64,000 bases of DNA from Mitsuaria chitosanitabida ATCC BAA-476 = NBRC 102408. GTDB taxonomy: Bacteria > Pseudomonadota > Gammaproteobacteria > Burkholderiales > Burkholderiaceae_C. The position numbers and the translations under genes were made by a program. This document shows positions 5,190-53,731 of the stretch, piece after piece. Location of the stretch: positions 1 to 64,000 of the forward strand of contig NZ_BCYP01000011.1 in the NCBI RefSeq assembly GCF_001598255.1, read 5' to 3'. Numbering within the stretch: the first letter of the stretch is position 1; every line of letters begins with the position of its first letter. The notes under the pieces were generated by a model, which saw only the letters and a list, made by a program, of their open reading frames with translations, made no database searches and was not told where the DNA came from.

Positions 5190-6143
5190 TCACCGTCGCC
5201 CCCGCGCCTCCAGCACGAAGTACGCCGTCGCGGCGATGAGCAGCGGTCCGAGGTAGTACAGCGCCCGGTATGCGATCAAGCCGGCCAGCACCTGGCCATG
5301 GCCGAGCGTCGGTCCGAGCAAGGCGATGAACACGCCTTCCAGCACGCCCAGCCCGGCCGGCACATGGGTGACCGCGCCGGCCACCGCCGCGGCCAGCAGC
5401 ACGGCCAGCACTTGCGGGTAGGGCACGCCCTGGCGCAGCAGCACCCACACGATCGCGCCCATCACCATCCAGTTGGCGGCCGAGATCGCGATCTGCATCA
5501 GCGCGATGCGTGGCCCCGGCACGACGATGTCATGGCCGCGGACGCTGAATCCGCGTCCCTGCGCGAAGGCGCAGACGGCCACGTAGCCGACCACGACCAG
5601 CCACATCAGCGCACCCAGCCCACGCAGCGCCGCGGTGCCCACCGGCCACGTGGGTGGCGGCGCGAGCCACCCCGCCATCAGCAAGCCGCCGGCGAGCGCG
5701 CCATAGCCCAGCCAGTTGCTCGCCAGGCTCAGGCCCAGCACCTGCGTGGGGATCGGCTGCGCCAGGCCTTCGCGCGCGTACAGCCGCAGCCGCATCGCGA
5801 TCGCGCCCACCAGCGAGCCGAGGTTCAGGTTGAACGCGTAGCTGATGAAGGTGATCAGCATCACCCGACGCGCGGGCACCGCATGCCGGGTCCAGTGTTT
5901 GCCGATCAGGTCGTAGCCGCTGTAGACCAGATGGCTCAGCGCGCAGAGCGCCGCGGCGGTGGCGAGGACGCCGGCCGGGAGCTGGCGCAGCGCATCGCCC
6001 ACCTGGTCCCAGGCGACATGGCTCGCCGCCCAGGCCAGCAGCGCGACGATCGCGATCCCGAAGATCGCGCCCAGCCATCGACCCGGGCGACGCGCCGGCG
6101 GGTCGCGGCGCGGGTGGTCGGCCGCGGAACCGTCCGCCCTCAC
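5190..6143 (-). CDS. ybhN: YbhN/UPF0104 family membrane protein (LPG synthase-like transmembrane domain)
   Basis: This is an inner-membrane protein of 317 residues with about eight hydrophobic segments. It belongs to the YbhN/UPF0104 family, which shares its membrane domain with the flippase part of lysylphosphatidylglycerol synthases. Conserved stretches include ISYAFNLNLGSLVGA, SNWLGYG and THVPAGLGVLEGVF. The exact substrate is unknown. The start is GTG at 6141-6143, whose last two bases form part of the TGA stop of clsB (GTGA junction), so translation is coupled. The order ybhP-clsB-ybhN is the same as in Escherichia coli. Confidence 0.9.
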   Translation of the reverse strand: MRADGSAADHPRRDPPARRPGRWLGAIFGIAIVALLAWAASHVAWDQVGDALRQLPAGVLATAAALCALSHLVYSGYDLIGKHWTRHAVPARRVMLITFISYAFNLNLGSLVGAIAMRLRLYAREGLAQPIPTQVLGLSLASNWLGYGALAGGLLMAGWLAPPPTWPVGTAALRGLGALMWLVVVGYVAVCAFAQGRGFSVRGHDIVVPGPRIALMQIAISAANWMVMGAIVWVLLRQGVPYPQVLAVLLAAAVAGAVTHVPAGLGVLEGVFIALLGPTLGHGQVLAGLIAYRALYYLGPLLIAATAYFVLEARGRR

Positions 6144-7426
6144 TCGAGCGCTTCCTCGCCCAGCCGCCGCATGCCGTGCCATTGCCAGGCCTGCGCCGGT
6201 CCCGTCGACGGCGCGGGCACCACGACGGGCGTCTCGGCCGCCGGCTGCACGCGCTGGGGCTGCACCGGCAGACGGGCCAGCCAGCGCGGGAAATGTCGCA
6301 ACACGTGGAAGACCAGCGCCCCGACGCCGAAGCGCCACCACCAGCGCCTGACCGCCGTGTCCTCGACCCGCAGGCGCCGGCAGCTGTCGCGCATCAGCGG
6401 CTGCAGCTTGTCCCGCAGCGCCCGGTTGAAGCCGCGGTCCTCGATGATCAGGTTGGCCTCCAGGTTCAGCGAGAGGCTCAGCGGATCCAGGTTGCTCGAG
6501 CCCACCGTCGCCCACGCGTCGTCGACCAGCGCGACCTTGCCGTGCATCGGACGCTCGCAGTACTCGTGGATGTGCACGCCCGCGCGCATCAGCTGGCCGT
6601 AGACCATGCGCGCCGCCCATCGCGCCCAGGGGATGTCGGGCTGGCCTTGCAGCACCAGGTGCACCGCGACGCCGCGACGCGCCGCGCGCTGCAGGCTGCG
6701 CAGCAGCAGGAAGCCGGGAAAGAAATAGGCGTTGGCGATGATGACCTCGCGCTGGGCGGCATGGAGCGCCAGACGATACATGCGCTCGATGTCGTCGCGG
6801 TGCCGATGGTTGTCCCGGGTGACGACCACGGCCCTCGCCGGACCCGCCGCGGGCGGCGGGGAGGCGGGCGCGGTGGGCGTGGCGCCGCGAGGCGGCCACC
6901 AGCGGCGCGGCTCGTCCCCCGGCTCGAGCAGAGTCCTCGCCGTGTGCCGCAGCTGCGCGACCACGGGGCCGCGCACGCGCACCGCGTAGTCCTGTTTCGA
7001 TTCGGGACCGTAGTCCATCAGGTGGTCGGCCGAGAAGTTGATGCCGCCGATGAAGCCGATGCGGCCGTCGATCACCGCGATCTTTCGGTGCAGGCGGCGG
7101 AAGGGCCGCAGCCGGCGCGACAGGCGCGGCGGCGGATCGAAGACGTGGAGCCGGACGCCGGCCTCGGTGAGCCCGCGCACGAAAGTCTCCGACAGCGCCG
7201 GCGAGCCGAAGCCGTCGACGGTCACGTCCACGCGCACACCCCGCCGGGCCGCGTCGACGAGCACCTCGCGCAAGGCGAGCCCGACCTTGTCCTCGAACAG
7301 GATGAAGGTCTCGATCAGCACCTCGTGGCGCGCGGACTCGATCGCGGAGAAGAGGGCGGGAAAGAAGGACTCCCCGTTCTCCAGCAGGTCGATGCGGTTG
7401 CCCGCGGTCCATTGCGGGCGCTTCAC
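6140..7426 (-). CDS. clsB: Cardiolipin synthase B (phospholipase D superfamily)
   Basis: ClsB makes cardiolipin at the inner membrane by phosphatidyl transfer. Two HKD motifs are intact: HRKIAVIDGRIGFIGGIN in the first half and HGKVALVDDAWATVGSSN in the second. The chosen GTG at 7424-7426 overlaps the ybhP stop as GTGA and gives 428 residues, close to the 413 of E. coli ClsB (YbhO). A longer reading frame upstream of this GTG lies inside ybhP and is not family-like. A Pro/Ala-rich loop near residues 190-210 and a basic C-terminal tail are variable regions. Confidence 0.93.
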   Translation of the reverse strand: MKRPQWTAGNRIDLLENGESFFPALFSAIESARHEVLIETFILFEDKVGLALREVLVDAARRGVRVDVTVDGFGSPALSETFVRGLTEAGVRLHVFDPPPRLSRRLRPFRRLHRKIAVIDGRIGFIGGINFSADHLMDYGPESKQDYAVRVRGPVVAQLRHTARTLLEPGDEPRRWWPPRGATPTAPASPPPAAGPARAVVVTRDNHRHRDDIERMYRLALHAAQREVIIANAYFFPGFLLLRSLQRAARRGVAVHLVLQGQPDIPWARWAARMVYGQLMRAGVHIHEYCERPMHGKVALVDDAWATVGSSNLDPLSLSLNLEANLIIEDRGFNRALRDKLQPLMRDSCRRLRVEDTAVRRWWWRFGVGALVFHVLRHFPRWLARLPVQPQRVQPAAETPVVVPAPSTGPAQAWQWHGMRRLGEEALE

Positions 7427-8160
7427 AGCCGGATCTCCGCGGCGAGCGGCGCATGGTCGGACAGGTGCGACCACGGACGTCGCGGCAGCACGATGGGCTG
7501 GCGCACCGAGGCGCCGCGCACGTAGATGCGGTCCAGCGCGAGCAAGGGCCAGCGCGCCGGGAAGGTCCGCGCCGCCGCGCCGCGCGCGTGGACGAAGACC
7601 TCCTCCAGACCCGCGCAGCGGCTCAGCAGGCGGTGCGCGCGCTGGCGCCAGTCGTTGAAATCGCCCGCGACCACCACGGGCGCGTCGGCGGGCAGGCTGT
7701 CGATCAGCTGGCACAGGCGCTCGACCTGACGTTGGCGATGCGACTCGCGCAGGCCCAGGTGCACGCAGATGGCGTGCAGCTCGCGGCCCTCGGCCAGGCG
7801 CAGCACGCTGTGCAGCAGGCCGCGTCGCTCGGGACCCTCGATGGAGACGTCGTGGTTGCGGTGATGGGTGATCGCGAACTTGGACAGCAGCGCGTTGCCG
7901 TGATGACCCTGCGGATAGACCGCGTTGCGCCCATAGGCGAAGTCGGACCAGAGGCTGTCCGCGAGGAATTCGTAGTGGGGGGCCAGCGGCCAGGCGGGGA
8001 TGCGGGCCGCGTGCAGCTCATGCTCGCCGAGGACTTCCTGCAGGAAGACCACGTCGGCGGACACGGCCCGGACGGCTTCGCGCAGCTCGTGCAGGATGAA
8101 GCGCCGGTTGAAGAAGCCGAAACCCTTGTGGAGGTTGACGGTGAGGACGGTCAGTTGCAT
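7423..8160 (-). CDS. ybhP: Endonuclease/exonuclease/phosphatase family protein YbhP
   Basis: This 245-residue protein has the metal-dependent EEP fold: TVNLHKGFG, FLQEV with the metal-binding Glu, VVAGDFNDW, and the C-terminal SDHAPLAAEI with the catalytic Asp-His. E. coli YbhP is its counterpart, also first in ybhP-clsB-ybhN. The substrate is not established; the genetic link suggests a phosphodiester or phospholipid head group. The ATG at 8158-8160 (MQLTVLTVNLHKG) is preferred over one six codons upstream because the fold begins there and an AGGT-type ribosome site precedes it. Confidence 0.88.
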   Translation of the reverse strand: MQLTVLTVNLHKGFGFFNRRFILHELREAVRAVSADVVFLQEVLGEHELHAARIPAWPLAPHYEFLADSLWSDFAYGRNAVYPQGHHGNALLSKFAITHHRNHDVSIEGPERRGLLHSVLRLAEGRELHAICVHLGLRESHRQRQVERLCQLIDSLPADAPVVVAGDFNDWRQRAHRLLSRCAGLEEVFVHARGAAARTFPARWPLLALDRIYVRGASVRQPIVLPRRPWSHLSDHAPLAAEIRL

Positions 8161-8274
8161 GACCTGCCGTCGCGGCAAGCCCTGTGCCCGCGCCCCGATC
8201 GATAGCCACGCGCTATGCGCCGCGGCGCCGATCGGACCGGGCCGACCCGGAGGATCAGGCGGTCAGCGACCGCC

Positions 8275-8370
8275 TCATTCCTCGGGCGTCAGCATCATGG
8301 GTCCGACGCAGAGGACCCCGAAGGTGAGGGCGAAGGCGCCCACCAGAATCGCGCCAATCACTTCAAGCAT
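8275..8370 (-). CDS. 31-residue single-span membrane protein downstream of cydX
   Basis: A small gene encodes MLEVIGAILVGAFALTFGVL followed by CVGPMMLTPEE, i.e. one hydrophobic helix with an acidic C-terminus. AGGAG stands six bases before the ATG, a strong ribosome site. It is the last gene of the cyd cluster, 132 bp after cydX and on the same strand. It may be an additional small subunit or assembly factor of the bd oxidase, but this is inference from position only. No family could be named. Confidence 0.6.
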   Translation of the reverse strand: MLEVIGAILVGAFALTFGVLCVGPMMLTPEE

Positions 8371-8502
8371 GGGAAGCTCCTGAGAGGCCATGGAGCGACC
8401 CATGCTAGACCCGCATTCCCCGGCCCGCAATCGCGGGCAGCGGTGTCCCACCGCCGATTCAGGGGATTCAGCGGGCACCGGCGTGCGATGCCGCACGGAT
8501 GC

Positions 8503-8631
8503 TCAATCGCGGCCGCCCTGACGCACGCGCTTCTTCTGCGCCTCGTCATCCATCAGCTCGAACCACATCGCGTTCAGCACCGCGAATCCCGCCGCCAGCG
8601 GCAGGCCCAGCAACCAGGCGAAGTACCACAT
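8503..8631 (-). CDS. cydX: Cytochrome bd oxidase small subunit CydX
   Basis: CydX is the 42-residue third subunit that stabilises cytochrome bd. The sequence begins MWYFAWLLGLPLAAGFAVLN and continues AMWFEL, the family hallmark (MWYFAW...LxxxxAxxNAxW.E), then ends in a charged tail (DDEAQKKRVRQGGRD). AAAGGAAG lies upstream of the ATG. It follows cydB by 72 bp on the same strand. Confidence 0.93.
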   Translation of the reverse strand: MWYFAWLLGLPLAAGFAVLNAMWFELMDDEAQKKRVRQGGRD

Positions 8632-8703
8632 GAGCTCTTCCTTTCAAGTCGTTGACGCGGAACGGGATTCCCGCTCCACGTCGAGGTTGGTGGAGCGATC
8701 GCG

Positions 8704-9858
8704 TCAGTACGCGTGGTCGCCGTGGGTGATGTCCTGCGGTCGCACCTTGCCCCAGATGACGCTGTAGACCCAGGCTGTGTAGATCAGGATCAGCGGCACG
8801 AAGATCACCGCGCACACCAGCATGATGAACAGTGTCAAGTGGCTGGAAGAAGCGTCCCAGACCGTCAGGGCCGACGCCAGATGGGTCGACGAGGGCACGA
8901 TGAAGGGGAACATCGAGGCGCCCACGCTCAGGATGATCCCGGCGATGCCCAGCCCGCTGAAGATCACCGTCGGGCCCTGCCAGCGCGCGCGCAGGCCGAC
9001 CAGCGCCAGCAGCGTTCCGGCGAAGCCCAGCACCGGCGCGGCGAGGGTCCACGGGTGCGCGGCGTAGTTGTTCAGCCAGCCGGCGGCGACGCCCGATTGC
9101 ACGGTCTTCATCAGCGGATTCGACGGGCCGTTCTCGGGCAGCGGGCTGGTCCAGGCATAGCCCCCCACCAGCTTCCAGATCAGCAGACCGGCGAGGGCGT
9201 AGAGCACGACCGTGACGATCGCCGCGAGGCTGGCGAAGGCGCGCGAGCGCTCCGCCACCGCGCCTTCGGTGCGCACCGTCAGCCAGGCGCCGCCGTGCAT
9301 CACCAGCATGGCCACCGAGACCAGTCCGCACAGCAGCGCGAAGGGATTGAGCAGCGCGAGGAAGGAGCCCTCGTAGATCATCCGCATGTCCGGCGTGAAG
9401 TGGAACGGGACGCCCTGCAGCACGTTGCCGATCGCGACGCCGAAGATCAGCGACGGTACGAAACCCCCGATGAAGAGGCACCAGTCCCAGGTCGCGCGCC
9501 AGGCGGGGCTTTCCTTCTTGCTGCGGTACTTGAAGCCCACCGGTCGCAGGATGAGCGCGAACAGCGCGGCGAACATCGCCAGATAGAAGCCGGAGAAGGA
9601 CATCGCGTAGATGTGGGGCCAGGCCGCGAAGATCGCGCCGCCGCCCAGCACCAGCCAGACCTGGTTGCCTTCCCAGATCGGGCCGATGGTGTTGATGACG
9701 ACGCGGCGCTCCACGTCCTCGCGGGCGACGAAGGGCAGCAGCGTGCCCACGCCCAGGTCGAAGCCGTCGGTGACGGCGAAGCCGATCAGCAGCACGCCGA
9801 GCAGCAGCCACCAGATGACGCGCAGGACGTCGTAGTCCAAGAGCGTGTGAAGAATCAT
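8704..9858 (-). CDS. cydB: Cytochrome bd ubiquinol oxidase subunit II
   Basis: CydB is the second integral subunit of the quinol-oxidising, oxygen-reducing cytochrome bd complex in the inner membrane. It has 384 residues (379 in E. coli) and about eight to nine hydrophobic segments. Family landmarks are FAVTDGFDLGVG near the N-terminus, GPIWEGNQVWLVLGGGAIFAAWP and the C-terminal TLFIMLVCAVIFVPLILIYT. It lies 63 bp after cydA. Confidence 0.97.
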   Translation of the reverse strand: MILHTLLDYDVLRVIWWLLLGVLLIGFAVTDGFDLGVGTLLPFVAREDVERRVVINTIGPIWEGNQVWLVLGGGAIFAAWPHIYAMSFSGFYLAMFAALFALILRPVGFKYRSKKESPAWRATWDWCLFIGGFVPSLIFGVAIGNVLQGVPFHFTPDMRMIYEGSFLALLNPFALLCGLVSVAMLVMHGGAWLTVRTEGAVAERSRAFASLAAIVTVVLYALAGLLIWKLVGGYAWTSPLPENGPSNPLMKTVQSGVAAGWLNNYAAHPWTLAAPVLGFAGTLLALVGLRARWQGPTVIFSGLGIAGIILSVGASMFPFIVPSSTHLASALTVWDASSSHLTLFIMLVCAVIFVPLILIYTAWVYSVIWGKVRPQDITHGDHAY

Positions 9859-9921
9859 GTGTCGCTCCTCAAAGGGCGGGAGGGATGAGGGACGGGATCG
9901 AACGGCGGGCGTGGACGGCGC

Positions 9922-11505
9922 TCATGCGGTGTGCACCTTGCCGATCAGAGGCACGTCGGCGCTGGCGGGACGCGGCGCGTCGGGCTGCGGGCCCTTGCGG
10001 ATCGCACCCAGCATCAGCTTCATCTCGACCACGATCAGCACCGTGTAGACCGCGACGAAGCCCAGCAGCGTGAACAGCACCGTCTCGGCGCCCAGGTGGG
10101 ACACGGCGACGGCGGTCGGCAGCACGCCTTCCACGGCCCAGGGCTGGCGGCCGAGCTCGGCCACGATCCAGCCGCACTCGGCGGCGATCCAGGGCAGCGG
10201 GATGGCCCACACCGCCACGCGCAGCAGCCAGCGGTGCCGGTCCAGCGTGCGACGCGCCGACAGCACGAAGAAGGTCGCCGTCAGCAGGATGAAGAACATC
10301 CCCAGCCCGACCATGATGCGGAACGACCAGTACAGCGGCGCGACCTGCGGCACCGTGTCCCAGGCGGCCTTCTGGATCTGCGCGTCCGTGGCCTGGCGCG
10401 GGTCGTCCACGTAGCGCTTGAGCAGCAGCGCGTAGCCCAGCGTCGGACTCTGCGCGTCGAAGGCCTTGCACATCTCGGCCGGCACCGCGGTGCCGGGCGG
10501 CAGCCCGCGGATCTTCTCGAGCAGGTCGTAGGCCTGCTGGCCCTCGCGGATGCGCTGCTCGGCGAGCTTGACCAGATCCAGGATGCCGGGGATCTGCTCG
10601 GTCAGCGAGCGCGTGCCGATCAGGCCCATGACCCAGGGGATGTGCACGGCGTAGTGGGTCTCGCGCGCTTCCTGGTCGGGGAAGCCGAAGGCGGTGAAGG
10701 AGGCGGGCGCCGGCTCGGTGTGCCACATGGCCTCGATGGCGGCGAGCTTCATCTTCTGATGCTCGGAGGACAGGTAGCCGCTCTCGTCGCCCAGCACCAC
10801 GACCGACAGCGAGGACGCCAGCCCGAAGGCCGCGGCAACCGTCAGCGAGCGCTTGGCCAGGTCGACGTGCCGGCCCTTGAGCAGGTACCAGGCCGACACG
10901 CCCAGCACGAAGAGCGAGGCCACCACGTAGCCGGCCGACACGGTGTGCACGAACTTGGCCTGCGAGACGGGGTTGAAGACGACCTCGGCGAAGTTGCTGA
11001 CCTCCATGCGCATGGTCTGCGGATTGAGCTTGGCGCCGACGGGGTTCTGCATCCAGCCGTTGGCGATCAGGATCCACAGCGCCGAGAAGTTGGTGCCCAG
11101 CGCGGTGAGCCAGGTCACGATGCAGTGCGCGCGGCGCGACATGCGTTCCCAGCCGAAGAAGAACATGCCGACGAAGGTCGCCTCCAGGAAGAAGGCCATC
11201 AGCCCTTCGATCGCGAGGGGCGCGCCGAAGATGTCGCCGACGTAGTGGCTGTAGTAGCTCCAGTTCATGCCGAACTGGAACTCCATCACCAGGCCGGTGG
11301 AGACACCGATGGCGAAGTTGATGCCGAACAGCACGCCCCAGAACTTGGTCATCTGCTTCCAGATGGGACGGCCGGTCATGACGTAGACCGTCTCCATGAT
11401 GGCGAGCAGGATCGAGAGTCCGAGCGTGAGCGGCACGAACAGGAAGTGGTACAGCGCTGTCATCGCGAACTGAAGTCGCGACAGGCCGACGATGTCGAGG
11501 TCCAT
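9922..11505 (-). CDS. cydA: Cytochrome bd ubiquinol oxidase subunit I
   Basis: CydA binds haems b558, b595 and d and oxidises quinol. The ATG at 11503-11505, with GGAGGAA upstream, gives MDLDIVGLSRLQFAMTALYH. His20 corresponds to the haem ligand His19 of E. coli. A second haem region is seen in KFVHTVSAGYV. The long Q-loop (VKLAEQRIREGQQAYDLLE... up to SPTLGYALLLKRYV) places it in the long-loop, E. coli bd-I-like subfamily. The 527 residues compare with 522 in E. coli. The open frame extends upstream of this ATG but overlaps cydC and is not family-like. Confidence 0.97.
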   Translation of the reverse strand: MDLDIVGLSRLQFAMTALYHFLFVPLTLGLSILLAIMETVYVMTGRPIWKQMTKFWGVLFGINFAIGVSTGLVMEFQFGMNWSYYSHYVGDIFGAPLAIEGLMAFFLEATFVGMFFFGWERMSRRAHCIVTWLTALGTNFSALWILIANGWMQNPVGAKLNPQTMRMEVSNFAEVVFNPVSQAKFVHTVSAGYVVASLFVLGVSAWYLLKGRHVDLAKRSLTVAAAFGLASSLSVVVLGDESGYLSSEHQKMKLAAIEAMWHTEPAPASFTAFGFPDQEARETHYAVHIPWVMGLIGTRSLTEQIPGILDLVKLAEQRIREGQQAYDLLEKIRGLPPGTAVPAEMCKAFDAQSPTLGYALLLKRYVDDPRQATDAQIQKAAWDTVPQVAPLYWSFRIMVGLGMFFILLTATFFVLSARRTLDRHRWLLRVAVWAIPLPWIAAECGWIVAELGRQPWAVEGVLPTAVAVSHLGAETVLFTLLGFVAVYTVLIVVEMKLMLGAIRKGPQPDAPRPASADVPLIGKVHTA

Positions 11506-11537
11506 GGCGGGGGTTCCTCCTGGCGGATCGGTGAGGG

Positions 11538-13481
11538 TCAGGTGATGCCGGGCGCGGTCTGCGGCGCGGGGCGGGGGGACGGGGACGGTGAAGGAGGTGG
11601 CGCCGCGCGCATTGCGGGCGAGGGCGCGGGCGTCGCCGCGGGCCGCGGTCCTGGAGGCGAGCGGTCGGTCCGCAGCGAGCGCAGCGCGCGGTCGAAGGCC
11701 GGCGTTCCACGGACCAGGTCGGCGACGAGCCGGCCCGCGTCGAGCACCAGCAGGCGGTCGGCCAACTCGGCCTCGCGCCGCAGGTGGGTGGCGATCAGCA
11801 GCGTGCGGCCCGTCGCTGGCGCGCGCAGGCGCCGCAGCACGTCGGCGGCGGTGTCGGCGTCCAGGGCCTCGGTGGGCTCGTCGAGCAGCCACAGCGGCGA
11901 GGGACGCAGCAGCAGGCGAGCCAGCGACAGGCGTCGCGCCTGGCCGCCGGACAGGCCCAGGCCGCCTTCGCCCAGCGGCGTGTCGAGCTGGCGCGCGAAT
12001 CGCCGAACCTCGTCGGCGAGGCCGGCATCGCCCAGGGCGTGCCAGAGTCGCTGATCGTCGGCCCGTGGGGCGGCGAGGCGCAGGTTGTCGGCCAACGAGT
12101 CCTGGAAGAGCTCCACGCGCTGCGTCATCCAGGTGGCGGGCAGCGCGCGCACCAGGCCCGTCGAGGCCGGGAGCTCCCCGGCGATCAGCGCCATCAGCGT
12201 CGACTTGCCGGCGCCGCTCGCGCCGATCAGGGCGACGCGCTCGCCTTCCGCGATGCGCAGGTCCAGCGCGTGCAGCGCGGGGTGATCGGCGCCGTCGTGA
12301 ACGACGCCGACCGCGCTCAGCGAGACCGCGAGACCGGGCAGGGGGCGAAGGCGCGGGGCCTCGTGGTCATCGAGCTCGTCGCGCTTGTCGTGTTTCTCGC
12401 GCTGGTCGCCGCGCCGGTGCCCGCCTTCCGCGCCGGCGATGGCGGGGGAGCTGGACGAGCTCAGAGAGGCCGGCCGGAACGAGGCGGGAGTGGCGCCCAG
12501 GCGAGGCGCCAGACGCCGAGCGGCCAGCGCGGCGCGGCCGGCGTCGATCGCGCCGCGCCGCAAGGCGGCGAAGGGCTCCATCGCGGCGAGCGCGACCAGC
12601 AGGCCCAACGCCGCCGCCGGGGCGCCGATGAGGCGCTGTTCCATCAGCGCGGCGACGGCGATCAAGGTCGCGGCCAGGGTGAGGCTGCCGGCGATGGTGA
12701 ACGCGCCGCCCGCGCGGGTTTCCAGCCGATGCAGCGCGCGATCGGCCCGCGCGAGCCGCGCGTCGGCGGCCATCACCGCATCGCGCTGGGCGCGCAGCCG
12801 GCCCGCCATGACGAGGTCGGTCTGACCGGCGACGAGATCGATGGCGCGCTCGCGCAGACGCTCCAGCGCGACGGCGCGGCGCAGGGCCAGGGGGCGGGCG
12901 CGGCGCGCGGTCATCCCGGTCACGACGCCCCCGACGATCGTCAGCCAGACCGCGATCGCGAGGCCCAGTCGCGGGTCCAGCGTGCCGAGGAGGGCGCCGG
13001 CCAGCAGGGCCGCGCCCACGGCGACCAGGACCGGCACGCCGACGCGCAGGTAGAGCGACTCCAGCGCGTCGATGTCGGCCGTGAGGCGGAACAGCAGCCG
13101 GCCCGGGCGACGCAGCAGCTGCCGCGCGGCGCCGGGTCTCGCCCAGCCGCGGAAGAGGCGTTCGCGCAGCGCGGCGAGCACGGCCAGCGTCGCGTCGTGG
13201 GTGACGACGCGCTCGCCGTAGCGGGAGGCGGTGCGACCCAGGGCGAGGAGGCGCACACCGGCGCTCGGCAGGAAGACATTGAAGGCGACGGCGCCGGCGG
13301 TCGCGCCCGCCAGGCCGGCAGCGGTGATGAACCAGCCCGACAAGCCGAGCAGGGCAATGCCCGCCAGCGCGGACAACCCCGCGAGGATCACGCCGAGCGC
13401 GAGCCGCGTCCCCGCGGCGCGTCGGAACGCGCGCAGCACGAGGCGGAGGTCGGCGCGGTGAGCCGGCTTGGCGCGGTTCAT
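11538..13481 (-). CDS. cydC: Heterodimeric ABC transporter CydC, required for cytochrome bd assembly
   Basis: CydC with CydD exports cysteine/glutathione-type thiols needed for haem d oxidase maturation. The membrane domain covers roughly residues 1-320. The ATPase domain has Walker A GASGAGKST, the signature LSGGQARRLSLARLLL and Walker B LWLLDEPTEALD. At 647 residues it is longer than the 573 of E. coli. The extra length comes from a Ser-run plus charged linker (HRRGDQREKHDKRDELDDHE) between membrane and ATPase parts, and from a Pro/Ala-rich tail of about 45 residues. The start ATG overlaps the cydD stop (ATGA). Confidence 0.95.
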   Translation of the reverse strand: MNRAKPAHRADLRLVLRAFRRAAGTRLALGVILAGLSALAGIALLGLSGWFITAAGLAGATAGAVAFNVFLPSAGVRLLALGRTASRYGERVVTHDATLAVLAALRERLFRGWARPGAARQLLRRPGRLLFRLTADIDALESLYLRVGVPVLVAVGAALLAGALLGTLDPRLGLAIAVWLTIVGGVVTGMTARRARPLALRRAVALERLRERAIDLVAGQTDLVMAGRLRAQRDAVMAADARLARADRALHRLETRAGGAFTIAGSLTLAATLIAVAALMEQRLIGAPAAALGLLVALAAMEPFAALRRGAIDAGRAALAARRLAPRLGATPASFRPASLSSSSSPAIAGAEGGHRRGDQREKHDKRDELDDHEAPRLRPLPGLAVSLSAVGVVHDGADHPALHALDLRIAEGERVALIGASGAGKSTLMALIAGELPASTGLVRALPATWMTQRVELFQDSLADNLRLAAPRADDQRLWHALGDAGLADEVRRFARQLDTPLGEGGLGLSGGQARRLSLARLLLRPSPLWLLDEPTEALDADTAADVLRRLRAPATGRTLLIATHLRREAELADRLLVLDAGRLVADLVRGTPAFDRALRSLRTDRSPPGPRPAATPAPSPAMRAAPPPSPSPSPRPAPQTAPGIT

Positions 13482-44135: not shown

Positions 44136-44256
44136 TGAGGCTGATTTTGGCAGCGACGCAGGGTGGGCCCGCGCATGGGCGGGATTACCCGGGATGCCCC
44201 TGTGTTTAAATCGACGGTTCGCATTTTCCCCTCTGAAACTCACCGCCGGAGTCATC

Positions 44257-45483
44257 TTGAGAACCGTCACCAAGTCCAGCAAATTGGCCAATGTCTGCTA
44301 CGACATCCGTGGACCCGTGCTGGACAAGGCCCGGCAGATGGAGGAAGAGGGCCAGAAGATCATCAAGCTGAACATCGGCAACATCGCCGCCTTCGGCCTG
44401 ATGCCGCCGGACGAGATCGTCCAGGACATGATCCGCAACCTGCCCGATGCCGCGGGTTACACGGACTCGAAGGGCCTCTTCGCCCCGCGCAAGGCGGTGG
44501 TGCATTACTGCCAGGAGAAGGGCATCACCGGCGTGGGCGTCGACGACGTCTACCTGGGCAACGGCGCGTCCGAGCTGATCGTGATGTCGCTCAACGCGAT
44601 GCTGGACAACGGCGACGAGGTGCTGCTCCCCGCCCCGGACTACCCGCTGTACACGGCCGCGGTCGCGCTGTCGGGCGGCACGCCCGTGCACTACATCTGC
44701 GACGAGTCCAGCGACTGGTTCCCCGACATCGCCGACATCAAGGCCAAGATCACGCCGCGCACCAAGGCGATCGTCGTCATCAACCCCAACAACCCGACCG
44801 GCGCGCTGTACCCCGAGCCGCTGCTGCGCGAGATCGTCGAGATCGCCCGCCAGCACCAACTGATCATCCTGGCCGACGAGATCTACGACAAGACGCTGTT
44901 CGACGGCAACGTGCACACCAGCATCGCCTCGCTGGCCGAGGACGTGCTGACGCTGACCTTCAACGGCCTGTCCAAGAACTACCGCAGCTGCGGCTACCGC
45001 GCCGGCTGGATGGTGGTCTCCGGCGACAAGCGCCACGCGACCGACTACATCACGGGCCTGAACATGCTGGCCTCGATGCGGCTGTGCGCGAACACGCCCG
45101 GCCAGCTCGCGATCCAGACCGCCCTGGGCGGCTACCAGTCGATCAAGGACCTGGTGGCCCCGGGCGGCCGGCTGGCGCGTCAGCGCGACCTCGCGTACGA
45201 GCTGCTGAGCCAGATTCCCGGCGTGAGCGTGGTCAAGCCGCGCGCCGCGCTGTACATGTTCCCCCGCCTCGACCCCAAGATCTATCCGATCGAGGACGAC
45301 CAGCAGTTCGCCTATGAGCTGCTGGCCGAAGAGAAGGTGCTGATCGTCCAGGGGACGGGCTTCAACTGGAAGTCTCCCGATCACTTCCGACTGGTGTTCC
45401 TGCCGAACACGGACGATCTCCGTGAGGCCGTGGGCCGCATCGAACGCTTCCTGGCGACCTACCGCAAGCGCCACGCGCGCTGA
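44257..45483 (+). CDS. alaA: Glutamate-pyruvate (alanine) aminotransferase AlaA-like
   Basis: This PLP-dependent class I aminotransferase makes alanine from pyruvate and glutamate. The 408 residues (405 in E. coli AlaA) carry INPNNPTGALYP, ILADEIYDKTLFD and the Schiff-base Lys240 in GLSKNYRSCGYRAGW. The start is taken as TTG at 44257, giving an N-terminus RTVTKSSKLANVCYDIRGP like that of relatives and having GGAG six bases upstream. An ATG 63 bases further up adds an unrelated lead. It precedes hom by 27 bp. Confidence 0.9.
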   Translation: MRTVTKSSKLANVCYDIRGPVLDKARQMEEEGQKIIKLNIGNIAAFGLMPPDEIVQDMIRNLPDAAGYTDSKGLFAPRKAVVHYCQEKGITGVGVDDVYLGNGASELIVMSLNAMLDNGDEVLLPAPDYPLYTAAVALSGGTPVHYICDESSDWFPDIADIKAKITPRTKAIVVINPNNPTGALYPEPLLREIVEIARQHQLIILADEIYDKTLFDGNVHTSIASLAEDVLTLTFNGLSKNYRSCGYRAGWMVVSGDKRHATDYITGLNMLASMRLCANTPGQLAIQTALGGYQSIKDLVAPGGRLARQRDLAYELLSQIPGVSVVKPRAALYMFPRLDPKIYPIEDDQQFAYELLAEEKVLIVQGTGFNWKSPDHFRLVFLPNTDDLREAVGRIERFLATYRKRHAR

Positions 45484-45510
45484 CCTCCCGACCTTCTGAA
45501 AGAGATAGCG

Positions 45511-46821
<1,311 letters not shown>

Positions 46822-46846
46822 CGGGCCGGCCCCGCGCGCGAGACCG

Positions 46847-48202
46847 ATGAGCGCCTCCCCGCTCGCCCTGCTGCTGGACGACTTCGCCCGGGTGCTGGCC
46901 AACGACCCGGGCGCGCTCGACGTCGACAGCGGGCTGTACGTGCCCAACCTCCACGGCGTGGCCGCGGAGGACGTCATCGCGCTGCTGCAGCGGGAGATCC
47001 TGCGCTCGTCCGACGAGGGGCACCTGCATTACTTCAGCGGGCAGCGGGGCACCGGCAAGAGCACCGAGCTCAAGCGCCTGGCCTCGATGCTCAATGGACA
47101 CGCCGAGGTCCGGGCCTACATCGTCGACGCGCTGGAATACATCAGCGACACCCATCCGCTGGACACGCTGACGCTGTTGCTGATCACCGCGGTCGCCTTC
47201 GCCGATCGGCTGGCGGCGGCGGACGGGCTGGGCGGTGACGCGCCCGGGCGCGAGGAAGGGTTGCTCGCGCGCTTCGTGCGATGGCTGGACACCGAGGTCG
47301 AGATCTCCGGCGTGTCCGTCGGCGCGGTGAAGGCGGAGTTCCGCAACCAGCAGCAGAGCATCGTGCAGCGCCTGCGCGATTTCGACATGAACCGCCAGGA
47401 GCGGGTCATGGCCGACTGCCGCCGCTACATCGGCGAGATGGCCGACGCGGTGCGGGCCAAGTGGGGATGCCGCAAGGTGATGCTGGCCATCGACTCGCTG
47501 GAGCGCCTGCGCGGCATCGGCGGCGAGGCCTCGGAGATGTTCGATCGCGTCGTGCGCGTCTTCGACGGCGGCATCGGCCAGCTCCGGATTCCCGGTGTCC
47601 ACATGGTCTACGCCGTCCCCCCGTATCTCCCGTACCTGACCAACGTCAAGGTGCTGGTGCGGCTGTTCATGCTCGCCTCGGTGCGGGTCTGCCGCACGCC
47701 CCGCGACGGCCGCCGGCAGCCCCGCGAGGCCGGCATCCACGCGATGCGCGAGGTGGTGCAGCGGCGCTGCGCCCGCTGGCGCGAGCTGATCACCGAGCCG
47801 GCGATGGACCGGCTCATCCTGGCCTCCGGCGGCGACCTGCGGCAGCTGCTGCGCCGCCTGCTGCTGGACGTCCTCGACGAGGCCTACTTCCAGCAGGACC
47901 GCCTGCCGCTGCGCGCCGACGATCCCATCCTGGACGTGGTGCTGCGCCGTCACGGCAAGGAGCTGGCCAACATGGTCGTGGGCGACGAGTACCCGCTGCT
48001 CAAGGGCATCGCCGACTCCAACGACCTCAAGCTGAATCGCCGCGAGGACCTGCCGGTCGCGGCGCATTTCTTCAATCTTCGCGTGGTGCTGAACTACCGC
48101 AACGGCGAGGAATGGCTGGACCTGAACCCGCTGCTCTGGGACCTGATCGACCACTGGGAACCCGCCGCGACGGGTGCCGGCGAGGTGCCGGCCGGTGGCT
48201 GA
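46847..48202 (+). CDS. P-loop ATPase of a two-gene module between hom and thrC
   Basis: The 451-residue protein has no signal or membrane segment. An N-terminal stretch SGLYVPNLHGVAAEDVIALL leads to Walker A GQRGTGKST (residues 65-73) followed by ELKRLASML. A likely Walker B is VMLAIDSLE (211-219), and IPGVHMVYAVPPYLPYL may be a sensor region. The C-terminal part is helical (GGDLRQLLRRLLLDVLDEAYF) and ends in a winged-helix-like VVLNYRNGEEWLDLNPLL. It fits AAA/STAND-like ATPases of unassigned role. It overlaps the next gene by 8 bp. Co-transcription with hom is likely. Confidence 0.75.
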   Translation: MSASPLALLLDDFARVLANDPGALDVDSGLYVPNLHGVAAEDVIALLQREILRSSDEGHLHYFSGQRGTGKSTELKRLASMLNGHAEVRAYIVDALEYISDTHPLDTLTLLLITAVAFADRLAAADGLGGDAPGREEGLLARFVRWLDTEVEISGVSVGAVKAEFRNQQQSIVQRLRDFDMNRQERVMADCRRYIGEMADAVRAKWGCRKVMLAIDSLERLRGIGGEASEMFDRVVRVFDGGIGQLRIPGVHMVYAVPPYLPYLTNVKVLVRLFMLASVRVCRTPRDGRRQPREAGIHAMREVVQRRCARWRELITEPAMDRLILASGGDLRQLLRRLLLDVLDEAYFQQDRLPLRADDPILDVVLRRHGKELANMVVGDEYPLLKGIADSNDLKLNRREDLPVAAHFFNLRVVLNYRNGEEWLDLNPLLWDLIDHWEPAATGAGEVPAGG

Positions 48203-49928
48203 GTCCGGGCTGGATCCCGCTTGGCGCCCCATCGAGCGGCGCCTGTCGCAGTTGGACGGATTCGGGCTTCTCGTGGTGTTCGTGCGGGACACGCGACGCG
48301 TGCCGGCGCTGCGCCGGGCGGTCGAGGACTGGGCCGCCGCGCGGCATCGTCCGCTGGTGAGCCTGGCCGAGCGCGATCGTGAAGGCTTTGCGGCGCGCAT
48401 GCTCACGCAGCTGTACGCGTCGCTGACACCGGGCGCGCGGCCGATGCTGTGGGTCGAGGCGCAGCGCGAGGAGGGCGACCCCCTGTGGGACGAGGAACGC
48501 GCCCGTCTCCTGAATCGCCTGAACGAACAGCGCGGCCGCCTCGAGGCCGAGGTCGGTCCGATGCTGCTGCTGGTGCCCGCCGATTTCATGCGCGAGACGA
48601 TCTCGCTGGCGCAGGACCTCTGGCATGCCCGCTACCTCAGCCTGGAGCTTGGCGCGGACACCGCGCCTGAAGCCGCCGCGGCGCCGGACGGACGTGGTGG
48701 ACCCGAGGCCGCGAAAGGCCTCGAGGGCAGCGGCGCCGAGGCGTCCTGGCTCTCGCAGGTCGACGAGGTCGAGGAGCTCCCGCGCGACGTGGACGAGGAA
48801 CTCGCGCGCTGGGACGCCGAGCTCGGTCCCCGGCTGGCGACGGTCGAGGACCTGAAGTCCGGTGCGCTGCGCGATTTCTGGATCCCGGACGCGGTCGCGA
48901 CGGTGCGCCGCGCGGTGCGGGATGACCGCCTCCCTTCGGCGAAGCGACTCGCCGGCCGGCTCGTGTCGCTGGCGCGTGCGCGCGTGCAGGCCCAGGCCGG
49001 CGTCTTCGGTGTGTTCGCCGCGCGGGACCTGGTCCGCGCGCTCCAGGTCGAGGGCTATGTGCGCTGGTCCGATGGCGCGCTCGACGAGGCGGCGACGCTC
49101 TACCGCGAGGCGGCGGCCGTCTGCCGCGCCTCGCTGAACACCGCGCCGGACGATGCCGACGATCAGCTCCTGCTGGCGCGCGTGCTGGACGATCAGGCCC
49201 AGCTCACCGAGCGGCTCGGCGATCTGGAGGCCGGCATCGCCCTGGCCGAGGAGGCCGTGTCGCTGCGCCGCCGGGTGCTGGCGGCCGCCGGCGACGAGCC
49301 CGCCCTGATGCGAGAACTGGCCAGGGGGCTCGAATCCGCGGCGCGTCTGTACCGGCGCCACGGCAATTTGTCGCGCGCCTCGCGCACGCTGACCGAGGCC
49401 GTGGACCTGCGTCAGGCCGCCACCGAGGTCGAGGCCGCCCTGGGGATCGACGATCCCCAGGCGACCCGTCGTCTGGCCGATGCCCGGCAGCAGCTCGGCG
49501 ACCTGCGTCTGCAGCGCGGCGAGCCGGACCTGGCCGTGGCGGAGCACGCGCTCAGCGTCGAGATGCGGCGCGTCCTGGCCGATGGCGGTGAGGATGCCGA
49601 GGCCACCCATGCGCTGGTGCTGGGCCTGGAGTCCCTGGCGATCGCGGCCGGCGCCGCGGGCCAGTCCGATCTCGCCGAGCAGGCCTGGGAGGAGGGCATC
49701 GCCATCGCCCGCGATCAGCTCGGCGCGGACGGGCCGACCCGCGCGGCGCTGGAGACCCTGGGCGAGCTGCTCGTCAACCGCATGTCCGCCGACCCGGCGC
49801 GCCAGCAGCGATGGCGCGCCGAGGCCCTCGATCTCTACGCGCGACTCGTGGAACGATTCCCCGAGGACGCCAAGACTTCCCTGTACGCGTCGATACTCCA
49901 GGAACTCCGGAGTCCGACGCAGGCCTGA
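48195..49928 (+). CDS. Tetratricopeptide-repeat protein paired with the ATPase
   Basis: This 577-residue soluble protein starts at GTG 48195, overlapping the ATPase stop; a second GTG 21 bases upstream is possible. The first 155 residues (FGLLVVFVRDTRRVPALRRA through PMLLLVPADFMRET) look like a P-loop-type alpha/beta domain that lacks a Walker A motif. An acidic linker follows, then from about residue 220 helical repeats with TPR character (SDGALDEAATLYREAAAVCR, GDLEAGIALAEEAVSLRRRV, GEPDLAVAEHALSVEMRRV). Such a build suggests a scaffold or sensor for the neighbouring ATPase. No known family is certain. Confidence 0.72.
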   Translation: MAESGLDPAWRPIERRLSQLDGFGLLVVFVRDTRRVPALRRAVEDWAAARHRPLVSLAERDREGFAARMLTQLYASLTPGARPMLWVEAQREEGDPLWDEERARLLNRLNEQRGRLEAEVGPMLLLVPADFMRETISLAQDLWHARYLSLELGADTAPEAAAAPDGRGGPEAAKGLEGSGAEASWLSQVDEVEELPRDVDEELARWDAELGPRLATVEDLKSGALRDFWIPDAVATVRRAVRDDRLPSAKRLAGRLVSLARARVQAQAGVFGVFAARDLVRALQVEGYVRWSDGALDEAATLYREAAAVCRASLNTAPDDADDQLLLARVLDDQAQLTERLGDLEAGIALAEEAVSLRRRVLAAAGDEPALMRELARGLESAARLYRRHGNLSRASRTLTEAVDLRQAATEVEAALGIDDPQATRRLADARQQLGDLRLQRGEPDLAVAEHALSVEMRRVLADGGEDAEATHALVLGLESLAIAAGAAGQSDLAEQAWEEGIAIARDQLGADGPTRAALETLGELLVNRMSADPARQQRWRAEALDLYARLVERFPEDAKTSLYASILQELRSPTQA

Positions 49929-49973: not shown

Positions 49974-51383
49974 GTGAAATACCTCAGCACCCGCGGCGAC
50001 AAGGCCGAACGCCACTTCAGCGACATCCTCCTCGAGGGGCTGGCCCCGGACGGCGGCCTGTACCTGCCGATCTCGTATCCGCAGGTCGACGCCGCGACCC
50101 TCGCGCGCTGGCGCGGCCTGTCCTACGCGGATCTGGCGATCGAGATCCTGTCGCTCTACATCGACGACGTGCCCGCCGCGGACCTGCGCGCGCTGGTCGG
50201 CCGCACCTACACCGAGGCCGTCTTCGGCACGCCGCAGATCACGCCGCTCAAGCCGCTGGCGCCGAACCTCGCGCTGGTGGCCCTGTCCAACGGCCCGACG
50301 CTGGCCTTCAAGGACATGGCGATGCAGCTGCTGGGCCAGCTGTTCGAGTACGAGTTGAAGCGCCGCGGCGAGACGCTCAACATCCTCGGCGCGACCTCCG
50401 GCGATACCGGCAGCGCCGCCGAGTACGCGATGCGCGGCAAGGCCGGCATCCAGGTCTTCATGCTCAGCCCGCACGGCCGCATGAGCCCCTTCCAGCAGGC
50501 GCAGATGTTCAGCCTGCAGGAGCCCAACATCCACAACCTGGCGCTGCAGGGCGTGTTCGACGACTGCCAGGACATCGTCAAGGCCGTCTCCAACGACCTC
50601 GAGTTCAAGCGCAAGTACCGCATCGGCACGGTCAACTCGATCAACTGGGCGCGGCTGCTGGCGCAGGTCGTCTACTACTTCGCCGCCTACTTCCAGGCGA
50701 CGACGAGCGACACGGCGCGTGTCAGCTTCACCGTGCCCTCGGGCAACTTCGGCAACGTCTGCGCGGGCCACGTGGCGCGCCAGATGGGCCTGCCCATCGA
50801 GCAACTGGTCGTCGCGACCAACGAGAACGACGTGCTGGACGAGTTCTTCCGCACCGGCGTCTACCGTCCGCGCGGCGCCGAGCGCACGCTGGAGACCTCC
50901 AGCCCCTCGATGGACATCTCCAAGGCCAGCAACTTCGAGCGCTTCGTGTTCGACCTGCTGGATCGCGACGCGGCCCGCGTGAAGCGCCTGTTCGGCGAGG
51001 AGCTGGCCTCCAAGGGCTTCTTCGAGATCACACCCGAGGAGCGCGCCCGCATGTCCGAGCGTTACGGCTTCGTCTCGGGCCGCAGCACGCACGAGGACCG
51101 GGTGAAGACCATTCAGCTCTGCCACCAGCGCTATGGCGTGGTCATCGACACGCACACGGCCGACGGCCTGAAGGTGGCGCTGGAGACGCGCCGCGAGGGC
51201 GTGCCCATGCTGGTGCTGGAGACGGCGCTGCCGGCCAAGTTCGCCGCCACCATCGAGGAGGCGCTGGGCATCGTCCCGCCGCGTCCGGCGGCGCTGGCCG
51301 ACCTCGAGGACCGACCCAAGCGCGTGACCGTGCTGCCGGTGTCGGTGGATCTGGTGAAGCAATTCCTGGTCGACCATGTCTGA
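49974..51383 (+). CDS. thrC: Threonine synthase
   Basis: ThrC converts O-phosphohomoserine to threonine with PLP. From GTG at 49974 the product has 469 residues starting VKYLSTRGDKAERHFSDILL, the family N-terminus; an earlier GTG at 49929 adds 15 unmatched residues. The PLP Lys113 lies in GPTLAFKDMAMQ. SGDTGSAAEYA and VPSGNFGNVCAGHVA are phosphate-binding loops. Its stop lies inside the moeA start region (8-bp overlap). Confidence 0.96.
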   Translation: MKYLSTRGDKAERHFSDILLEGLAPDGGLYLPISYPQVDAATLARWRGLSYADLAIEILSLYIDDVPAADLRALVGRTYTEAVFGTPQITPLKPLAPNLALVALSNGPTLAFKDMAMQLLGQLFEYELKRRGETLNILGATSGDTGSAAEYAMRGKAGIQVFMLSPHGRMSPFQQAQMFSLQEPNIHNLALQGVFDDCQDIVKAVSNDLEFKRKYRIGTVNSINWARLLAQVVYYFAAYFQATTSDTARVSFTVPSGNFGNVCAGHVARQMGLPIEQLVVATNENDVLDEFFRTGVYRPRGAERTLETSSPSMDISKASNFERFVFDLLDRDAARVKRLFGEELASKGFFEITPEERARMSERYGFVSGRSTHEDRVKTIQLCHQRYGVVIDTHTADGLKVALETRREGVPMLVLETALPAKFAATIEEALGIVPPRPAALADLEDRPKRVTVLPVSVDLVKQFLVDHV

Positions 51384-53001: not shown

Positions 53002-53122
53002 TGGCTGACGGGCTCCCCGTCGAACAAGCCCCGCGGATTCCAGTGAGTCGAACCGCCATCCGTGTCGGTCATGAGTCCAGGTCGTGCAAGATGTTCTGAT
53101 TGGCGGATTCCGTCGCGCGGAA

Positions 53123-53136
53123 CATGCTGTGGCATG
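53123..53136. promoter_or_regulatory. Inverted repeat covering the higB start codon
   Basis: CATGC (53123-53127) and GCATG (53132-53136) face each other around TGTG, with the higB ATG inside the right arm. It may be the HigA operator or an RNA structure limiting toxin translation. No strong ribosome site precedes higB. Confidence 0.4.
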
Positions 53137-53412
53137 ATCTGCTCATTCGCCTGTGCCGACACCGAGGCACTGTTCCTCAGCCGAGCGGTGCCTCGCTTCA
53201 TGCGCATTGAGCGAGTAGCGAGACGAAAGCTGCTGATGCTCAGCGCGGCGACGGTGCTGGGGGCGCTGAAGGTTCCGCCCGGCAACCGCCTCGAGGCCCT
53301 GCTCGGAGACAGGAAGGGACAGCACAGCATCCGGATCAATGATCAGTGGCGCATCTGCTTCGCCTGGCGGCCCGATGGTCCGCATGACGTCGAGATCGTC
53401 GACTATCACTAG
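53134..53412 (+). CDS. higB: HigB-type toxin (RelE/ParE superfamily mRNA endonuclease)
   Basis: The 92-residue basic protein fits HigB: MICSFACADTEALFLS at the start, RKLLMLSAATVLGALKVPPGNRLEAL in the middle, then LLGDRKGQHSIRINDQWRICF and the C-terminal VEIVDYH. Family members cut mRNA on the ribosome. The internal ATG at 53134 is chosen because the family begins there; 24 upstream residues from an earlier start are unrelated. The antitoxin gene follows 7 bp after the stop. Confidence 0.92.
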   Translation: MICSFACADTEALFLSRAVPRFMRIERVARRKLLMLSAATVLGALKVPPGNRLEALLGDRKGQHSIRINDQWRICFAWRPDGPHDVEIVDYH

Positions 53413-53419
53413 GACTCTT

Positions 53420-53731
53420 ATGGCGACGTTGCTCGACGAGATTCACCCCGGGGAGATCCTCCTCGAGGAGTTCATGAAGCCCATGAAGCTGACTGCGAGG
53501 CAGTTGGCGGCCGATATCGATGTGCCGCCGAGCCGGGTGAGCGATCTGGTGAACGGCCAGCGTCCCGTGACCGTGGATACGGCCATGCGCCTCGGATTGT
53601 TCTTCGGCATGGACCCGAGGTTCTGGCTCAACCTCCAGGCGGAGTACGACATCCGCGTCGCGACGCGTGAACTCAGGCCGCTGCTGGAGTCGAGGATTCG
53701 TGTCTATCAGCCCGTGCCGCTCACTCCTTGA
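53420..53731 (+). CDS. higA: HigA-type antitoxin (XRE helix-turn-helix)
   Basis: The 103-residue protein begins MATLLDEIHPGEILLEEFMK, the HigA hallmark, and has the HTH stretch TARQLAADIDVPPSRVSDLV followed by NGQRPVTVDTAMRLGLFFG. It neutralises HigB and should repress the pair. The last 11 bases overlap the 3' end of the convergent thioesterase gene. Confidence 0.93.
   Translation: MATLLDEIHPGEILLEEFMKPMKLTARQLAADIDVPPSRVSDLVNGQRPVTVDTAMRLGLFFGMDPRFWLNLQAEYDIRVATRELRPLLESRIRVYQPVPLTP

Follow-up and report, generated by a model that had tools for sequence, protein, structure and literature searches.

Why does Mitsuaria chitosanitabida ATCC BAA-476 = NBRC 102408 carry the genes of an ATPase and a tetratricopeptide repeat (TPR) protein between hom and thrC, i.e. 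within its threonine operon? We analysed the first 64,000 nucleotides of contig NZ_BCYP01000011.1 (assembly GCF_001598255.1), called the window from here on, in which this gene pair occupies positions 46847 to 49928 of the forward strand. The reading which we prefer by a modest degree is that the pair forms a split conflict module of the STAND/NLR-like, i.e. innate-immunity-like, kind, in which the switch and the sensor would lie on separate chains. We infer a role in defence from the variability and patchy distribution of the pair, from one lineage that resides in defence islands, and from the fold kinship of the ATPase with NLR-type ATPases.

The two proteins

The first gene (46847-48202, plus strand), which would provide the switch of the pair, encodes a chain of 451 aa that consists of the ATPase region only, with nothing else fused to it. 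Searching with its AlphaFold2 model (predicted local distance difference test, pLDDT, 91.5; predicted template modelling score, pTM, 0.90), Foldseek retrieves the archaeal MNS-type ATPase 2qen (E-value 2.4e-07), Cdc6/Orc1 (2.1e-06) and Apaf-1 (1.6e-05), followed by RdrA (5.1e-05), TnsC (6.2e-05), CED-4 (8.8e-05) and Avs3 (7.1e-04). Sequence-profile matches to the PDB extend little beyond the nucleotide-binding half, and Pfam AAA_22 and AAA_16 match only under their cut-offs. Viewed as a whole, the model ends in helices 379-411 and a beta hairpin (414-426) resembling a winged helix. Judged by its predicted structure, the protein thus belongs to the AAA+ ATPases of the ORC/STAND kind and has what looks like a winged helix at its end.

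The Walker A motif GQRGTGKST, already noted in the preliminary description of this DNA, is located at residues 65-73 (47039-47065), where all 79 aligned ATPases share G65, G68, G70, K71 and T73. Equally invariant are D216, S217 and E219, which end a Walker B-like strand (D216-S217-x-E219; 47480-47503; strand 210-216 in the model), as well as R307, Y417 and W423. As Walker A and the C-terminal hairpin (YRNGxxWxDLNP; 48086-48130; strands 414-419 and 421-426 in the model) were among the patterns with which the loci were searched, the invariance of the Walker A residues and of Y417 and W423 is biased.

The TPR partner (48195-49928, plus strand) comprises 577 aa when read from the GTG codon at 48195. 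Its frame is open from another GTG at 48174, and partner residues are numbered here after the resulting 584-aa form; the start at 48195, which yields an 8-bp overlap with the ATPase gene, is the likelier one and is preceded by a GAGG at 48182-48185, as judged by eye. In the AlphaFold2 model (pLDDT 89.2; pTM 0.76) a five-stranded alpha/beta domain (residues 12-162; 48207-48659) is followed by a low-confidence linker (residues 164-197; 48663-48764; pLDDT <50) and a TPR superhelix (residues 206-579; 48789-49910), for which Pfam TPR_12 scores 29.7 bits against a cut-off of 30.1. Pfam TPR_MalT matches 16 of 71 partner rows at an E-value of 0.01, and the 50 Foldseek matches listed for the whole partner contain TPR superhelices. 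The N-terminal domain has no P-loop, in line with the earlier view of a Walker-less alpha/beta fold. All 71 of its aligned rows share N117, R120, D148 and W150. The 8 members of the domain tried against Pfam gave no significant match, and no PDB sequence matches it better than at an E-value of 0.48. A domain with four strictly conserved residues is thereby defined, the role of which can be tested directly.

Distribution and divergence of the pair

A scan of one-genome-per-species contigs with alignment A1 served to collect relatives, the best 80 of 134 of which form the set of ATPase loci used here; an earlier contig scan of close relatives with a single protein had given no match. The loci stem from Pseudomonadota, Thermodesulfobacteriota, Myxococcota, Acidobacteriota and Actinomycetota. 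Pairing is nearly obligate, with the N-terminal domain of the partner encoded directly downstream on the same strand in 77 of the 80 loci, at a spacing of -38 to +219 bp (75 measured loci). Among the three exceptions, L107 enters masked bases, and the partner at L137 and L153 looks decayed or lost by eye. Moreover, the distances between ATPases correlate with those between partner domains (r = 0.84; 60 loci), a value as high being reached in 0 of 1000 permutations. Alignment A3 holds the 80 loci with the omission of L092 and L143 (cut), A4 comprises 70 of the 77 partners (without L081, L097 (N-filter), L100, L121, L131, L144 and L148), and A5 is A4 minus nine more rows.

The family is rare in both order and phylum. 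A profile of the partner domain detects it in four of 250 Burkholderiales genomes, including G608, whose contig ends at the expected position of the ATPase, and in 7 of 398 genomes of the phylum, two of them with strong matches. Full-length ATPases occur at four places in three genomes among the matches listed for the order. A tally with the ATPase profile (225 of 250 genomes of the order) was left unused; the matches listed cover mostly about 40-110 positions around Walker A, and we take DnaX to be their likely source. No member of the pair came to light when viral contigs were scanned by pattern, a search that reaches close to moderately distant kin only.

Several more distant arrangements came to light. 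L222 (G824; 5770-9403) holds a more distant pair, in which an ATPase with the motif GHRGSGKSTEL overlaps a protein with the alpha/beta head; the latter carries near-identical repeats of another type, LRIRTEEQLPVYERLGD. Head and repeats of this kind are also present at a contig end in L172/L225 (G608), and L216 is a diverged paralogue pair with weak AAA_16 and NACHT matches, both under cut-off. In L217/L221 (G826), a frame of 2269 aa (L221, 2397-9206) joins a partner-like alpha/beta head and TPRs to a weak PNP_UDP_1 match under its cut-off, which could be an effector fusion and as such a hint at the output of the pair.

Compared to its flanking genes, the pair diverges fast. Between the window and G566, amino-acid identity falls from 0.95 for hom and 0.89 for thrC to 0.72 for the ATPase and 0.43 for the TPR protein. 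Nonsynonymous substitutions per site (dN) rise accordingly, from 0.037 (hom) and 0.081 (thrC) to 0.201 (ATPase), 0.364 (alpha/beta domain) and 0.631 (TPR array). For the ATPases of G573 and G574, the synonymous counterpart (dS) amounts to 1.67, whereas hom and thrC reach 0.43 and 0.42, as if these alleles were older than the species. Conversely, the ATPases of L079 and L081 are identical at 447 of 454 positions while the core genes are more distant, and both patterns fit an exchange of alleles.

The partners of many relatives contain near-identical 48-residue repeats of variable copy number. Tandem Repeats Finder detects tandem repeats in 32 of 57 partner genes, which represent 55 distinct loci (L074/G578 and L089/G574 being the same contigs); the units measure 138-144 bp or a multiple of this, are 72-97% alike and occur in 1.8-15.4 copies. 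L106 and L108 differ with 9.0 and 4.0 copies, although their ATPases are identical at 417 of 437 positions (95.4%).

The hom-thrC junction and other sites

In the window, hom (45511-46821, plus strand; NCBIfam NF004976, E-value 4.6e-176) ends 25 bp before the ATG of the ATPase gene at 46847, and the stop of the partner gene at 49928 is separated by 45 bp from the GTG start of thrC (49974-51383, plus strand; TIGR00260, E-value 1.6e-70), a start position that is aligned across 21 of 21 compared loci. The tight spacing of two overlapping frames proposed beforehand thus agrees with the coordinates throughout. The flank identities proposed with it stand for hom and thrC, both above their cut-offs, whereas moeA passes a domain model only and remains below the cut-offs of the MoeA equivalogs of NCBIfam. 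With an alaC-like gene, these three make up the neighbours of the pair, of which the genome (5.8 Mb) holds one ATPase and one partner copy. A search for sigma-70-like promoters between 44000 and 53500 found none, compared to 0.4 expected, and it is plausible that the pair shares the transcription of the threonine operon. Two further features of this region were noted. A 923-aa frame open on the minus strand (44206-46977), antisense to alaC-hom, is probably a high-GC artefact, and two small overlapping frames at 53062-53731 resemble, by eye, a toxin-antitoxin pair of the HigB/HigA type.

That hom and thrC normally adjoin, as had been assumed, holds for the genus. Full-length ATPase matches occur in 5 of its 16 genomes and the partner domain in the same five and no other, in each case between hom and thrC; a sixth genome, G572, shows a weak partial ATPase match only (E-value 5.7e-4) and was set aside. 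In the 11 genomes without the pair, hom and thrC overlap (seven as GTGA, one as TGATG) or lie 2, 2 and 7 bases apart. In a tree built from alaC, hom and thrC, carriers and empty genomes are intermixed, and inspection of the occupied junctions by eye revealed no repeat, target-site duplication, integrase or other mobile part. The pair was earlier called inserted; this is apt for a present or absent state between touching genes, while this state would fit a gain as much as a loss, and no mobile part was seen at the junction. Among 40 relatives, 38 possess hom and five the pair. Of the non-carriers, 28 have the same type of thrC downstream at a gap of at most about 370 bp, and five lack such a thrC. 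The only open reading frames noted in gaps above 150 bp are small (111 and 107 aa, in L232 and L237). The idea of a general cargo hotspot at hom-thrC is not supported, as these 40 relatives hold no other large cargo there.

Beyond the genus, hom or thrC stands beside the pair in 19 of the 80 named loci. In a sample of the family, 10 of 200 genomes match, six of them with hom adjoining the ATPase; of the others, G047 has the pair elsewhere, one contig is too short, and two matches are weak and partial. On a quick tree of the ATPase, on which the placement of the long branches L015 (second copy), L017, L111, L090 and L135 is unsure, the hom-thrC label requires 9 changes, at least 7 of them forced by starred branches, compared to a mean of 21.7 for shuffled labels; the label "other" includes contigs too short to show the flank, and the count pools gains and losses. 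These changes suggest that distant lineages of the module reached or left the junction repeatedly, and they count against a single ancestral insertion. At L015 (G181; 7106-11635), hom and thrC enclose an ATPase, a TPR partner and another ATPase that has diverged strongly (end branch 4.1), an arrangement in which modules may be piling up at the junction.

Like the pair of the window, most loci looked at adjoin housekeeping genes, ten of which were tested by NCBIfam while the others were read by eye. Upstream of the pair, the tested neighbours are glyQ (8 bp; L083, where glyS follows 34 bp after the pair), metG (51 bp; L084), greA (55 bp; L113), dxs (89 bp; L109) and ilvA (274 bp; L105); downstream they are fumC (21 bp; L143) and dnaE (65 bp; L127). 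L137 neighbours aceE, and L114 a gene for a subunit of pyruvate carboxylase/oxaloacetate decarboxylase. The pair is seen to have moved between loci only over long time scales.

One clade with 100% support on the ATPase tree (L136, L144, L146) resides in restriction-modification and defence islands (L218, L219 and L220). Around L146, in L220, the gene order is hsdM-hsdS-gajA-gajB-[pair]-hsdR, i.e. Gabija adjoins the pair; the PADLOC E-values are 3.6e-254 for the type I methyltransferase, 3e-105 for the specificity subunit, 7e-194 for GajA, 6.1e-214 for GajB and 2.5e-32 for the type I restriction enzyme. Around L136, in L218, the pair is followed at a 4-bp overlap by a type III methyltransferase (2.1e-188), then Fic (1.6e-109) and a type III restriction enzyme (2.6e-212). 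This type III methyltransferase recurs in L144 (7.7e-172).

Readings of the pair and known systems

The suggestion of a conflict-type ATPase/TPR module, also made in the preliminary description, gains support from the near-obligate pairing, the fast divergence, the variability of the repeats and the one lineage in islands. In such a module, the alpha/beta head would dock the TPR protein onto the ATPase, and the TPR array would recognise a ligand that keeps changing, the simplest candidate being a protein of a phage or of another foreign source. Ligand binding might then free the ATPase to exchange its nucleotide and to assemble. The output of the assembly could proceed via the alpha/beta domain with its invariant N117, R120, D148 and W150, or via a host target. 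The pair of the window, for which no promoter of its own was seen, probably rides on a low and steady transcription of the threonine operon, while strains would exchange, acquire and lose alleles through recombination in the core genes on either side.

Several observations weigh against the conflict module. It has no recognisable effector in the pair itself, and against known STAND folds the ATPase reaches modest template modelling scores (TM-scores; 0.24-0.40 on the query). PADLOC 2023 gives no match to the window pair at an E-value of 0.001. The dN/dS of the TPR array spans 0.22-1.07 across seven pairs and is raised but below 1 in most, while dS is high, near saturation, in several comparisons; these ratios show fast change of the array, short of proven positive selection. 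Tandem repeats are detected in 0 of 11 tested sequences of the window's own clade, which resides in a biosynthetic operon. The island lineage is a single clade, about 30% identical to the ATPase of the window, and counts once. Mobile elements often carry defence systems, whereas tblastn with the window's ATPase, which reaches close to moderately distant kin only, gave no match among 50,697 phage records and only two among 72,556 plasmids (28% and 23% identity).

Most of the probability left beside the conflict module is shared by three alternatives. A self/nonself or competition module, such as a kin-recognition or poison-antidote system, would be kept by selfish or social selection, not by phages. 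Hypervariable repeats, fast divergence, the all-or-none occupation of a single site and allele exchange speak for it; we nevertheless consider it unlikely, given that the island lineage favours defence and that no toxin-like domain, secretion signal or small antitoxin was noted, no search having been aimed at these. Of similarly low probability is a factor for protein quality control or assembly, in which the ATPase would remodel clients that the TPR adaptor brings, e.g. nascent products of the operon. Chaperones commonly combine an AAA+ protein with a TPR partner, and the pair often stands beside core genes (glyQ-glyS, metG, greA, dxs, aceE, fumC, dnaE, ilvA). The host operons, however, have no common pathway, the pair is patchy even within one genus (5 of 16 genomes), its TPR array changes much faster than the neighbouring genes do, and one lineage sits in restriction-modification islands. 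Least probable is a regulator that, in the way of the STAND ATPase MalT with its TPR sensor, would control the threonine operon or the supply of amino acids. The tight spacing inside the operon and the recurrence of hom-thrC in 19 of 80 named loci would suit it, but it is disfavoured because the same pair stands beside many unrelated genes, with 61 of 80 named loci lacking visible hom or thrC beside it (some contigs being short), 11 of 16 congeners lacking the pair, and neither window protein having a DNA-binding domain in Pfam. Hence, of the defence or regulatory system proposed earlier, the regulatory half recedes, and the defence half is what we would, by inference, somewhat favour.

The conflict module invites a wider proposal, which we put forward as tentative and as distinctly less secure than the module itself. 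The pair may be a widespread split NLR, for which core operons, above all hom-thrC in betaproteobacteria, serve as scarless exchange sites of hypervariable immune alleles, by recombination in the flanks and with no mobile element. If this were true, NLR-type immunity of bacteria would also exist in a two-chain form, missed by keyword and island-based searches because of its location in housekeeping operons and because no family model exists for its partner domain. Core operons would then join the places in which to look for defence genes, and a single site, present or absent in sister species and with alleles at every stage of divergence, would offer a simple genetic system for the diversification of a sensor.

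How does the pair compare with systems already described? It is neither universal in a housekeeping role nor well matched by the profile of any characterised system, in agreement with the earlier remark that no known name fits both proteins; no catalogued defence system is a good match. The weak PADLOC matches of the window pair, PtuA (E-value 0.0034) and mad8 (0.019), are at the level of the Walker region. The literature searched, outside of which lie most subscription journals and which includes the accessible part of PMC13092281, gave no description of the pair. Among the MADS components, mad8 matches 20 of 79 ATPases at an E-value of 0.001 (best 4.7e-08), whereas the window locus has no other mad genes. 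The remote Foldseek match to RdrA likewise recalls RADAR, but no gene for an RdrB-like deaminase adjoins the window pair. MalT-type regulators share the logic of an ATPase combined with TPRs; here, however, two genes are involved, and neither window protein shows a DNA-binding output domain in Pfam at an E-value of 1.

Conflict systems offer further likenesses. The NTP-dependent conflict systems, the MoxR-vWA ternary system and others, combine an NTPase with superstructure-forming repeats, rapid diversification and operonic organisation, according to the accessible part of PMC7159879. That part does not describe our pair, and no vWA, MoxR, VMAP, iSTAND or FtsH component adjoins it in the window; the pair shares the features just named with these systems, as far as they are set out there. 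STAND defence proteins consist of an effector, a STAND domain and a C-terminal sensor, e.g. of TPRs, that binds phage proteins (accessible part of PMC10907252). With these and other NLR-like proteins (Avs, bNACHT; Apaf-1, CED-4) the pair shares an ORC/STAND-kind core, followed by what may be a winged-helix-type end, and a superhelical, fast-diverging repeat sensor. In contrast to their single-chain layout, sensor and effector are not fused to the ATPase, and the repeats reside on a second chain, behind an alpha/beta domain not described before.

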